A stretch of 64,000 nt of DNA, taken from assembly GCA_947649495.1 (NCBI GenBank), contig CANSRU010000001.1:180837-244836 (forward strand), written 5' to 3'. Positions 16,814 through 51,036 of the stretch are shown piece by piece. The translations under genes were made by a program, and so were the position numbers. A model generated the notes under the pieces. That model was not told the DNA's origin and searched no databases. It worked only from the letters and a program-made list of their open reading frames with translations. Source of the DNA: an uncultured Porphyromonadaceae bacterium (GTDB taxonomy: Bacteria > Bacteroidota > Bacteroidia > Bacteroidales > Muribaculaceae). Position 1 is the stretch's first letter. Each line of letters opens with the position of its first letter.

Positions 16814-17980
16814 TCAAATCTTTTCCACAAGCTCTTGTGCATAAAGGCGGGCTTCCCTGTTGCTCTCCACATAATCGTTGATATCAGGCGACGATATATA
16901 AGGTACCTTTTCAAGAGTATCTTCTATCAACGGATATATATCGGTGAAGCGTATGCGGCCATGCAGGAACGATGCCACGGCGACTTCGTTGGCCGCGTTG
17001 ACCACGCACGCGGCATTTCCCCCTGACGCAAGCGCCCGGTAAGCGAAATTAAGACACGGGAAACGGCCGGTGTCCGGACGCTCGAATGTGAGATTGGCAT
17101 AATCGGCAAGGCTCATTGCCGGAGCATCCGACACAAGGCGCGTAGCATCGCCCAACGCATAGCGTATGGGTACATGCATGTCAGGCAAACCGAGCTGAGC
17201 CTTCACCGCTCCATCCACAAACTGCACCATGGAATGGACTATTGACTGCGGATGCACCACAGCCTCAATCCTGTCGGCATCGATGCCAAACAACCATCTG
17301 GCCTCTATTATCTCAAATGCCTTATTAAGCATTGTGGCAGAATCTATTGTGATTTTAGCCCCCATAGACCAATTGGGGTGGCGCAACGCATCCTCAACCG
17401 ACACAGTGGCCAACCGCTCGGCAGGAAACTGCCTGAACGGCCCACCCGATGCAGTGATTATCAGGCGCGACACCGAATCGGGATTCTCCCCAACCATACA
17501 TTGGTATATGGCCGAATGCTCAGAATCGACCGGAATGATGCGCGATTTTGATTCTTTAAGCATCTTTGTCACCAGCTCACCGGCCACAACAAGGGTCTCC
17601 TTATTGGCCAAGGCGATATCTTTCCCAGCCTCCACGGCCCTCAATGTCGGAGCCAGCCCGCTGTAGCCCACAGTTGCGGTGAGCACCGTGTCTACATCGT
17701 CACGTGCCGCGCAGGCCGCAAGAGCCGCATCGCCGGCTGCAACTTCAATGCCCATAGGCTCCAATGCGTTTCTCACACTGGAATATTGCCGTTCATCAGC
17801 AATCACGGCCATTGTCGGCCGGAATTTCATGCACTGACTCACAAGCAATTCGGCATTACGCCCTGCGGCAAGGACCTGAGCCTTGAACAAATGTGGATAG
17901 GCCGATATTATATCAAGGGTCTGGGTGCCGATTGAACCGGTACTGCCCAGCACCGCTATTCGCTTAGGTTCATTAACCAT
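16814..17980 (-). CDS. dxr: 1-deoxy-D-xylulose-5-phosphate reductoisomerase
   Basis: AVLGSTGSIGTQTLDII, ASGGPFR, HPNWSMGAKITIDSATMLNK; start set at ATG 17980 because the upstream TTG (18007) overlaps a -7 box. Confidence 0.95.
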   Translation of the reverse strand: MVNEPKRIAVLGSTGSIGTQTLDIISAYPHLFKAQVLAAGRNAELLVSQCMKFRPTMAVIADERQYSSVRNALEPMGIEVAAGDAALAACAARDDVDTVLTATVGYSGLAPTLRAVEAGKDIALANKETLVVAGELVTKMLKESKSRIIPVDSEHSAIYQCMVGENPDSVSRLIITASGGPFRQFPAERLATVSVEDALRHPNWSMGAKITIDSATMLNKAFEIIEARWLFGIDADRIEAVVHPQSIVHSMVQFVDGAVKAQLGLPDMHVPIRYALGDATRLVSDAPAMSLADYANLTFERPDTGRFPCLNFAYRALASGGNAACVVNAANEVAVASFLHGRIRFTDIYPLIEDTLEKVPYISSPDINDYVESNREARLYAQELVEKI

Positions 17981-18004: not shown

Positions 18005-18053
18005 CAAAGATACGAATAAGTTGAGTGCAAAACCAAACTTGTTTGAGTTTTGC
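18005..18053 (-). promoter_or_regulatory. Bacteroidota-type promoter P1 of dxr with inverted repeat over the -33
   Basis: Minus strand GCAAAACTCAAACAAGTTTGGTTTTGC...TATCTTTG; TTTG-N21-TATCTTTG. Confidence 0.65.
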
Positions 18054-18078
18054 CGAACGCGAGTATCTAAGGCGAAGT

Positions 18079-18112
18079 CAAAGATACGAATAAGTCGGGG
18101 GCAATGCCAAAT
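18079..18112 (-). promoter_or_regulatory. Tandem upstream promoter copy P2 of dxr, hairpin arm truncated
   Basis: CAAAGATACGAATAAGTCGGGGGCAATGCCAAAT on +; again TTTG-N21-TATCTTTG on the minus strand. Confidence 0.5.
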
Positions 18113-32608: not shown

Positions 32609-33769
32609 ATGCACCGCTCACCTTGTAAGAAACTGAAAATACTGCTGCTTGGCGACGCCAGTAACTTCCACAACGCCCTGCGCACAGGCCTGACACGTCT
32701 TGGCCATGATGTCACTGTGGCTTCAGCCGGAAGCTACTGGATGGACACCGAACGCGACATCAACCTGCGCCGTTATAACAACAAACTGAGCGGCGCCTGG
32801 CTTTGGTTTCGTCTACGCACCCGGTTGCTGAAAGAAATGAGTGGATTCGACATAGTATCCATAAGCAACCCCATATTTCTCAATCTGCGTCCTGAGAAAA
32901 ACCGCTTTGCCCTCGACTTCCTGCGCCGCAACAACACATCCCTGTTTCTCACAGCGCTCGGCACCGACTCCGCCTATATCGATGCAGCCACCGACCCATG
33001 CGGCCCATTGCCCTACAATGAATGGGCTGTTCACGGCCAGCCCTCCCCCTATGCCATAGCCCGTCCCGACATTCTGCGCGACTGGCGCGCACCTCTTCTG
33101 CACAATCACTGCGATTACACCTACAGCATAATCGATGGAGCCGTCTCTGCCCTCTACGAATATCACCTTACATGCTCCACCATGCTGCCGGAATCAAAAC
33201 TCGCTTACGGCGGCATCCCCATCGACACTGAATCCATAACACCGGTCGAACTGCCCGACCGCCCCGACAAAGTGATACTGTTTCTCGGCATGCACCGCGA
33301 CCGTAAGATTGAGAAAGGCACCGACCGTATTCTCGCAGCCGCCCGCCGGGTGGAGGCGCGGCACCCCGGCAAATGCCGCCTCGACATTGTGGAGAATTTG
33401 CCCTACAGTCAATATCTACAACGCATGCGCTCGGCCCATGTGGTGCTTGACCAGCTATATTCCTACTCCCCCGCCACCAACGCGTTGCTTGCCATGGCCA
33501 TGGGACTGAACACACTCAGCGGAGGAGAACCGGAATTTTACAACTTTATCGGCGAACGGCGCATGCGTCCCATTATCAACGCCATACCCGACGACGAAGC
33601 ACTCGTGCGCACACTTGAAGAAGTGGTGACCCAACCCGAACTCCTGCGCCAGCGCGGCATCATAGGGCGCCGTTTTGTCGAGAAACACAATTCCTGCGAG
33701 ATTGTCGCCAACCGGTTTCTCAACCAATGGACGTCGTGCATGTCACCACATACGCTCCGTTCCCTTTAG
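32609..33769 (+). CDS. Glycosyltransferase (GT4-like)
   Basis: LKILLLGDASNFHNALRTGLTRLGHDVTVAS, VILFLGMHRDRKIEKGTDRIL, DQLYSYSPATNALLAMAMG. Confidence 0.75.
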   Translation: MHRSPCKKLKILLLGDASNFHNALRTGLTRLGHDVTVASAGSYWMDTERDINLRRYNNKLSGAWLWFRLRTRLLKEMSGFDIVSISNPIFLNLRPEKNRFALDFLRRNNTSLFLTALGTDSAYIDAATDPCGPLPYNEWAVHGQPSPYAIARPDILRDWRAPLLHNHCDYTYSIIDGAVSALYEYHLTCSTMLPESKLAYGGIPIDTESITPVELPDRPDKVILFLGMHRDRKIEKGTDRILAAARRVEARHPGKCRLDIVENLPYSQYLQRMRSAHVVLDQLYSYSPATNALLAMAMGLNTLSGGEPEFYNFIGERRMRPIINAIPDDEALVRTLEEVVTQPELLRQRGIIGRRFVEKHNSCEIVANRFLNQWTSCMSPHTLRSL

Positions 33770-34582
33770 CATCCGCACCCCTTTAAGCATCCCCCGGAGC
33801 CCTTCGCCGGGACTGCTCATTCCGCTCCGGTACATACGCCATGCCTTAAGCGGTATGCGCAGCGGCCAAGTCATCGGATATCCCAGTTTTATCAGCGCCC
33901 CATTGGCATAATGTATCCCTGCTTCTGTAACACGCCGGTAGCCTGTCGACACATCGGGATGGTTCAATATCACATCAGGGAAATATCGGCAATTCAACTT
34001 CCGGCGACGTGCCGTAAGCAAAAACAGTGTATCCTCTCCACACAGAAACCGCCCCGACCCCGGGCCGAAATCAGGATGAAACCTCAGAAGTCCGGCACGC
34101 GACCCGCGCCTTATCGCCAACTGACATCCTCCAACATGGAAATTCTTAGGCATCACAGCAAGATCCAGTTCCCTGTCGGGAAACGGAGCACGGCCTGACG
34201 CCGTGCAATTGAACACAGCAAGCTCAACATCCAGGTTCTCAGCAAACCGACGCCTTACCATATCGAAAGCACCCGGGCTGTACACCACATCATCGTCGGC
34301 ACACAGCACTATTTCGGCCGAGCAATGCTCCAACGCGTTGTTGCGGTTATGGCTCACCCCGCGGTGCTCCTCACGCACCACCGTCACATCCTCACGCACC
34401 AATTCCCGCGGCACTGCGGCTCCGCCATGCTCCTGCCACGATACCACATATCTCACGCCCTCCTCAGGCGCCATCAACATGCGCGCCACCCGGGCGGCTC
34501 CATCAGCCCCCCATGTCACAACAGCCACATCAAGCGTGGGCAATTCCTGTCCGGCAATGCTATTATCTTCCGCTCGGTTCAT
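33743..34582 (-). CDS. Glycosyltransferase family 2
   Basis: HNRNNALEHCSAEIVLCADDDVVYSPGAF. Confidence 0.8.
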   Translation of the reverse strand: MNRAEDNSIAGQELPTLDVAVVTWGADGAARVARMLMAPEEGVRYVVSWQEHGGAAVPRELVREDVTVVREEHRGVSHNRNNALEHCSAEIVLCADDDVVYSPGAFDMVRRRFAENLDVELAVFNCTASGRAPFPDRELDLAVMPKNFHVGGCQLAIRRGSRAGLLRFHPDFGPGSGRFLCGEDTLFLLTARRRKLNCRYFPDVILNHPDVSTGYRRVTEAGIHYANGALIKLGYPMTWPLRIPLKAWRMYRSGMSSPGEGLRGMLKGVRMLKGTERMW

Positions 34583-34586
34583 ATGG

Positions 34587-34635
34587 CAAATATATGAACA
34601 ATTGAGTGTGAAAGCAAGCCTTGGCTTGATTTTGT
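34587..34635 (-). promoter_or_regulatory. Divergent copy of the hairpin-promoter module
   Basis: Minus strand CAAGCC-AA-GGCTTG dyad, CTTG-N20-TATATTTG directly abutting the ATG at 34582. Confidence 0.5.
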
Positions 34636-34661
34636 AGGGCGGAAGTATTATATAAAGAAAC

Positions 34662-49523: not shown

Positions 49524-50060
49524 TCAGAAGCTTATACCGAGACGCACACAAGCCATACTCAGGCCATTGATGTCGCACCATTCGTCGCTTTTCTGGAATG
49601 AACGCATTCCATTATATACGTAGCTCAGTGCGAGATACGAAGTGAATGAACGGCCGCGGGCAAGGTTAATGCCGATGCCGGGCGACAGATACAGACGTGT
49701 GGTCTGCTTGCTGTATGTAACATTGTTGAATACGCATCCGGCACGTAGGTCCATGAAGAGGAGAGTGGGACGCGAACTGAAGCCGGTGCGCAGCAAAGCG
49801 TAGACAGGGAACGACCGCGTGGCGTTGCTTACCATCATGTTAACTCCGGCACCGATACCGAGCACATCTATCGAATTGCTTTTATATCCGAAAAAAGCAT
49901 CGAGATTTATGGTCGACATGTCGTTGCTGGTAAGGTCAATGGCTCCTCCGGCTTCAGCACCCCACACGAAGTGTTCGAGAGCCGACGGCACAGCCGATTC
50001 GGAAGCACGGACTGACAATACGGGAATAAGAGCGAGCAATAGCAGTAAAATCTTTTTCAT
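49524..50060 (-). CDS. Outer-membrane beta-barrel-like hypothetical protein
   Basis: Signal peptide, alternating beta strands, C-terminal aromatic (LGISF). Confidence 0.6.
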
Positions 50061-50077
50061 AATGTAATGATGAAATG

Positions 50078-50126
50078 CAAATATACGAATAAGTAGGGTG
50101 CAATGCCAAATTTATTTGAGCATTGC
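50078..50126 (-). promoter_or_regulatory. Hairpin-promoter module upstream of the barrel protein gene
   Basis: Minus strand GCAATGCTCAAATAAATTTGGCATTGC...TATATTTG; TTTG-N21-TATATTTG. Confidence 0.65.
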
Positions 50127-50160
50127 CGAGCAAAAGTATATTGGCAGCATGTCAAATATA

Positions 50161-51036
50161 CTATTTTTTCAAACGGCAGGCGACCACCGCACCGCTACTC
50201 GCTAGCGACATGCAAGCCCAGTTCTTCCGCTCGGTGAAACCCTCCATACGCAAACCGCACCGCTTAGCCACCTCTTCCACCACCGGGATATCCTCGACAT
50301 AGAAGCCGCTGAGCAGCACTCTCGCACCGGGTGCGAGATGCCGTGAATAGGCAGGCAGGTCGGCAGTTATCACATTGCGGTTTATATTGGCCACGAGCAC
50401 ATCGGCCTTGAAGCCCACCTCATCCAGACGCGAACAGTCGCCAAGCAGAATGTTTATTTCATCGTGATTGTTAAGCTGCTTGTTATCGAGCGCGTTAAGG
50501 TAAGCCGGCTCATCAATCTCAATACCGGCCACAGGTGCCGCGCCACGCATGGCGGCGAGTATGGCCAGAATACCGGTTCCGGTGCCCATATCAATCACAG
50601 CCTTGCCTTCGAGCTCAAGCTCAAGCAGACGTGATATAATGAGCCATGTGGTGGAATGGTGTCCGGTGCCGAATGCCATTCTGGGGTCAATTACAATATC
50701 GTAATCGCATTCAGGGATGTCGGTATGGAAAGAGCTGTGGATAACACATTTATCGGCCACTACTATCGGCTTGAAATAATTTTTCTCCCATTCGTGGTTC
50801 CAGTCGCGCCCCTCCACCATGGTCACAGTCCATGTGTGTGTGCAATCAAACGGCATGGCATCAAGAGCCTGCTCGCATTCGGGGGTATACGCATCTTTAC
50901 GTATATAGGCCACCAGCGCGTCGGCTTCAGGCACAAAACTCTCAAAACCGGCATCGGCAAGCAGGGCCGCCGCCACATCGGTTATATCCTCGCTGCAAGG
51001 GGTGAGACCGATTCTCACCTCCATGTAATCGTTCAT
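50161..51036 (-). CDS. prmA: Ribosomal protein L11 methyltransferase
   Basis: DPRMAFGTGHHSTTWL, VIDMGTGTGILAILAAMRGA, DVLVANINRNVI, LSGFYVED. Confidence 0.95.
   Translation of the reverse strand: MNDYMEVRIGLTPCSEDITDVAAALLADAGFESFVPEADALVAYIRKDAYTPECEQALDAMPFDCTHTWTVTMVEGRDWNHEWEKNYFKPIVVADKCVIHSSFHTDIPECDYDIVIDPRMAFGTGHHSTTWLIISRLLELELEGKAVIDMGTGTGILAILAAMRGAAPVAGIEIDEPAYLNALDNKQLNNHDEINILLGDCSRLDEVGFKADVLVANINRNVITADLPAYSRHLAPGARVLLSGFYVEDIPVVEEVAKRCGLRMEGFTERKNWACMSLASSGAVVACRLKK

Follow-up and report, generated by a model that had tools for sequence, protein, structure and literature searches.

Covarying hairpins beside Bacteroidales promoters very probably belong to an interspersed repeat that carries a -7 box

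Two distant hairpins in a 64-kb window of the genome of an uncultured Muribaculaceae bacterium (the window being the whole stretch of 64,000 nucleotides analysed here) differ by base changes that preserve their pairing, which raises the question of what these paired changes maintain: a promoter structure at each locus, or a sequence with a history of its own. An earlier note on this DNA had attributed paired change within fixed flanks to selection on the dyad itself. Direct reading of the two copies (18027-18053 and 50100-50126) returned exactly the sequences quoted there, and their six base differences do resolve into three Watson-Crick swaps, namely A-T to T-A, A-T to G-C and C-G to T-A. The differing bases occupy positions 5, 6, 12, 15, 22 and 23 of the 27-mer, all within three stem pairs, and when six stem substitutions were drawn at random, only 12 of 100,000 draws left all twelve pairs intact. 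In a scan of the window for the geometry of this hairpin (H1), the 18027 and 50100 copies were the only perfect 12-pair examples, and matches with 11 of 12 pairs occurred at chance frequency. The supposedly fixed flank, CAAAKATACGAATAAGT, which occurs unchanged at 18005, 18079 and 50078 and in diverged form at 34587, requires some revision: it is a sigma-ABfr -7 box present at both loci, but one variable base (K) changes together with a partner approximately 55 nt away, and again with a second box (at 18079 and 50153), such that the box itself covaries.

Both hairpins were found to be embedded in a larger unit of approximately 74 bp, which comprises a box (CAAAKWTAC), GAATAAGT, YGAGN, H1 (GCAAWRC CAAAT TT ATTTG A GYWTTGC), CGAGCGNGA, a guide (GTAWMT), NNGRC..GYC and a further box, and which in tandem arrays recurs head-to-tail about every 74 bp. 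The 50-kb copy is a complete unit on the plus strand (50078-50161; covariance model match G000:C1:230914-230997, E 1.2e-22), running from the left box and a spacer through H1 (50100-50126; 12 bp with a bulged A, delineated by pairing, covariation and folding) and a second spacer to the guide GTATAT (50136-50141) and the right box (50153-50161). Guide and right box form a second hairpin, H2 (50136-50161, by pairing and folding), in which GTATAT pairs with CAAATATAC; it can alternatively pair with the left box at 50078. On the minus strand, the left box provides the -7 box TATATTTG (50078-50085) of a gene at 49524-50060 (minus; 178 aa, an open reading frame without a Pfam match) whose ATG lies 17 nt downstream, while a -33 TTTG is read inside the H1 arm (50107-50110, minus), 21 bp from the -7 box. 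The stop codon of prmA (50161-51036, minus; PF06325, E 3.4e-46) abuts the right box.

The 18-kb copy repeats this arrangement upstream of dxr (16814-17980, minus; PF02670, E 7e-43). Here the complete unit (18005-18087, plus; covariance model E 4.8e-26) contains the -7 box for dxr, TATCTTTG (18005-18012, minus), a -33 TTTG in the H1 arm 21 bp away (18034-18037, minus), an H1 of the GCAAAAC/GTTTTGC type (18027-18053, by pairing, covariation and folding), and an H2 (18063-18087, by pairing and folding) whose guide GTATCT (18063-18068) pairs with CAAAGATAC in the right box (18079-18087), a sequence shared by the left box at 18005. A second tandem unit begins 74 bp on (18079-18112, plus) and is truncated to the box, spacer and left H1 arm. 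A third, degenerate copy (34587-34661, plus; covariance model E 6.4e-4) lies upstream of a glycosyltransferase gene (33743-34582, minus), whose start codon is a few nucleotides away; its inner stem is richer in GC (CAAGCC TT GGCTTG).

A covariance model built from an alignment of 30 units from many genomes identified 16 copies at E < 1e-3 in the source genome (2.45 Mb, 34 contigs). Allowing up to 3 mismatches, the element was found in 20 of 198 Muribaculaceae genomes and in 2 of 16 sampled genomes of the same genus, with up to about 20 copies per genome, and it was nearly absent from wider samples of the phylum and class. A scan with named sequences returned 97 stretches, and among the matches listed the labels were Muribaculaceae, Porphyromonadaceae, Alistipes, Odoribacter and other Bacteroidales, together with one metagenome-assembled genome under the label Lachnospiraceae, in which the match has the same coordinates as in a Muribaculaceae genome. 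The viral contigs searched contained no match. Searches of the open-access literature by sequence string and by topic recovered no description of this repeat, which is weak evidence of novelty. Taken as a family, these copies are very probably an interspersed repeat that carries a local promoter box.

Across this family, the paired change described for two loci proved to be widespread, in many more copies from many genomes, and involves both H1 and H2. In the 30 diverse units, 95.2% of 629 cells were paired (96% of H1 cells), sliding the partner column by 1 to 3 positions reduced pairing to below 50%, and double changes occupied 48 cells compared with 16.9 in shuffles, none of 500 shuffles reaching as high. 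We further applied an R-scape-like test with a phylogeny-preserving null, in which Fitch substitutions on a FastTree tree were reassigned to branches and scored by a G-test with average-product correction. Among 142 H1 sequences, stem pairs 28-44 and 27-45 ranked first and second of 1,431 column pairs, with E values of approximately 0.008 and 0.011 when only the 12 proposed pairs were considered, but of about 1 over all pairs. In 64 complete units the top scores again fell on stem or box-guide pairs, with all-pairs E values of 0.23-0.67 for the first four. Over all column pairs, then, neither the 142 H1 sequences nor the 64 units showed significant covariation against the tree-preserving null (E 0.2-1). 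We regard this test as moderate, not decisive, support, because the short sequences under test also supplied the tree and because few of the double changes can be placed on a single branch.

A further regularity concerns the box and its internal inverted copy, the guide. Of 65 complete units, 59 show agreement between left box, guide and right box, as GA/TC/GA (45 units), TA/TA/TA (10) or GT/AC/GT (4), and a further AA type with guide TT occurs in one genome (G039). In another genome (G183), one GT-type copy otherwise resembles the GA copies of the same genome, which indicates that the three positions can change together. This agreement is the strongest hint of mechanism, and suggests that a site-specific process may be at work, one that would require box:guide pairing in the folded single strand and a match between that strand and its target.

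The strand opposite the box reads TATMTTTG, with TTTG 21 bp upstream, and together these fit the consensus of sigma-ABfr promoters of the Bacteroidota, which have a TAnnTTTG -7 box, TTTG at the same distance and a location near the start codon (PMC7366714); the box and TTTG of the unit are accordingly described here as a predicted promoter of this class, unlike ordinary promoters of congeners in having hairpins, a guide and a second box. Of 107 arrays, drawn from many genomes, 102 have the left box ahead of a start codon (ATG) by no more than 120 nt (median 25.5 nt), compared with 26 that have a gene start on the right side. Native TAnnTTTG boxes occur at like distances in 16 of 54 window genes versus 3 in a reversed control; to the right of the last box, a native -33 motif showed no clear spacing peak. 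Beyond dxr and prmA, whose identities were confirmed by Pfam, the genes behind copies in the source genome include what we take, from their N-termini, to be der, dgt, guaA, dnaE and uvrA.

Comparison with relatives lends no support to the idea of the dyad as a promoter structure that is conserved at these loci. The unit is absent from the intergenic region between prmA and the adjoining gene at 20 same-genus loci, several of which have a native box where one would be expected. Upstream of dxr, der, dgt and dnaE in the same genus it is likewise absent, many of these regions keeping a native box such as TGCAAATATACGCAATAG, with a single exception: a congener (G178) that possesses several copies and carries two units at dxr, of box type GT with guide GTAACT. 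Left and right boxes match and native boxes stand at empty sites, as a target-site duplication of the MITE kind would have it, but same-genus orthologues, at approximately 65-85% DNA identity, are too diverged for the empty sites to be base-exact. A closer pair sought in the genus of another positive genome (G057) gave a best match of 75% DNA identity at the tested locus, with the two flanks at different places. An all-against-all comparison of the flanks of the compared loci yielded one clear shared site, occupied in both of two Alistipes genomes (L103, L118); at this same site of the same gene both H1 arms differ, through either concerted change or independent insertion. Together with the element at dxr in the congener, this shared site with different arms makes vertical persistence with concerted change possible.

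The decay of copies bears on the same issue. Of 148 copies detected by their left half, 57 have no recognisable guide and 20 (approximately 14%) no distal H1 arm, figures which include some last, partial units of arrays; right-half matches with readable upstream sequence still have the left part. That the promoter half outlives the dyad argues against a promoter role for the hairpin, and the orthologous promoters that have a -7 box without the element, combined with the copies that retain the promoter half without a dyad, suggest from sequence comparison that the promoter does not need the dyad. Selection on the dyad itself is upheld in part: paired change is widespread, but since the copies form a patchy interspersed repeat, the most likely target of any selection behind it is the repeat element. 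The covariation signal belongs to the repeat family rather than to promoter architecture. More generally, covariation beside a promoter can be a property of a resident repeat and not of gene regulation.

The explanation that we favour, with confidence somewhat above even, is a REP- or MITE-like repeat whose landing sites are -7 boxes: each landing would leave the box in duplicate and bring in a fresh -33 TTTG, and the pairing would serve propagation. Under this explanation the unit would be a non-coding, tandemly amplifying palindromic repeat interspersed in the genomes of some Bacteroidales, which enters the chromosome at an existing -7 box and leaves a box on both sides; arrival by such insertion is, in our judgement, likely. 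The promoter would be kept working by the H1 arm, whose TTTG lies upstream of the -7 box at a distance of 21 bp, and would need the left half alone, such that this half could persist after the distal half decays. Self-complementarity, both in H1 and between guide and box in H2, may be kept because a folded single strand is the form that is copied or recombined, with the guide rendering the box double-stranded for a putative trans-acting recombinase or HUH-type enzyme; whether the element's own propagation is what maintains the pairing we consider evenly balanced. More speculatively, and with a good deal of doubt, these units could represent a class of non-coding elements across the Bacteroidia that insert into -7 boxes by base-complementary recognition, the guide pairing with the box in the folded strand and target and guide changing together, while carrying a replacement -33 motif so that the gene stays expressed.

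Several other explanations have to be weighed against this one. Were the dyad a promoter or operator structure selected for gene control at each locus, either as the site of a dimeric regulator or as a cruciform at -33, it would be expected where it is found, as copies always adjoin a promoter in one orientation and the -33 TTTG sits in the stem. We nevertheless consider such a role improbable: orthologues of these housekeeping genes within the genus lack the dyad, copies reduced to the promoter half persist, the dyad is common to genes as unrelated as dxr, der, dgt, dnaE and guaA, and the A-T to T-A swaps preserve pairing while altering the sequence that a protein would read. An RNA element (a terminator, attenuator or small RNA) in transcripts that cross the intergenic region appears very improbable. 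Single strands of both window units do fold better than shuffles (z about -2.8, calculated with DNA parameters), but the hairpin is placed upstream of where the adjoining gene is inferred to start, no T-tract follows H1, the window has no Rfam match at gathering score, and G-U is very rare among the variable pairs of the H1/H2 alignment. This scarcity of G-U intermediates fits a DNA dyad better than an RNA.

The paired changes may instead be mutational rather than selected, produced by quasipalindrome template switching or by conversion between arms and copies that homogenises the dyads. The orthologous Alistipes copies that differ in both arms at once, the tendency of copies within one genome toward the same arm type and the scarcity of one-sided intermediates all accord with this; against it, the bulged base is retained from type to type, as are the unpaired spacers, whereas template switching should remove such imperfections too, and we consider it unlikely. 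Mobilisation as REP or REPIN elements by a RAYT (TnpA-REP) would account for extragenic palindromes with a bulge, tandem arrays and genome-specific types, and in one of the positive genomes (G035) a gene for a Y1 transposase lies close to a copy. The search for a parent transposase covered Y1_Tnp (PF01797; Y1/RAYT), which had no match in the source genome or in six further positive genomes but is common in relatives that lack the element; the unit alignment has no conserved GTAG or CGTC tag, which in the definition of REPs and REPINs precedes the palindrome (PMC3733652, PMC8266576), and the units run head-to-tail. We accordingly hold this origin to be quite improbable. In the single genome concerned, the Y1 gene lies approximately 0.7 kb from one copy (L326, 1393-2544), and another copy follows about 4 kb further on.

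Returning to insertion at -7 boxes, the unit shares with REP, BIME and REPIN elements a short extragenic palindrome with a bulged stem, tandem arrays, lineage-specific types and likely single-strand folding, and differs from them, beyond the features just given, in its strict placement on -7 boxes and in containing a complement of the box. Correia repeat enclosed elements and other promoter-carrying MITEs, as far as their descriptions go (PMC2649163, PMC10969869), are likewise small non-coding interspersed repeats able to supply neighbours with promoters; compared by these descriptions rather than by sequence, the present unit differs in that its duplicated flank is the promoter box and its orientation to the gene is fixed. 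The architecture, and the architecture only, also resembles integron attC sites, with outer pairing, an unpaired central spacer, an inner stem with an extrahelical base and a structure kept more than its sequence, but the box (CAAAKWTAC) has no GTTRRRY core and there are no cassette genes.

If the favoured explanation is correct, the repeat would have an unusual 'safe' niche in the core promoter box of housekeeping genes, which it occupies in a fixed orientation, and through it promoters could naturally turn over in abundant gut bacteria. Interspersed palindromes are already known; near-exclusive siting on a promoter box, with an internal complement that tracks the box, would be unusual, and the match of box, guide and box makes the question of mobility directly testable.

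Variants of this arrangement were also seen. Two genomes from other families of the class (L329 of G484, 1000-1100, and L361 of G824, near 1501) contain a unit of related form, with GCAGAGCCAAACTTGTTTGAGCTATGCCGA and, as its box, the different sequence CCAAATTTTTGCG, which is again complementary to sequence that follows H1 (GCAAAAAT, GCAAAAT). In Muribaculum caecicola (G144; L092, L125), TA-box copies have a wholly different H2 stem (GTATATTGTATTCATACAAATATAC) in which pairing is kept.
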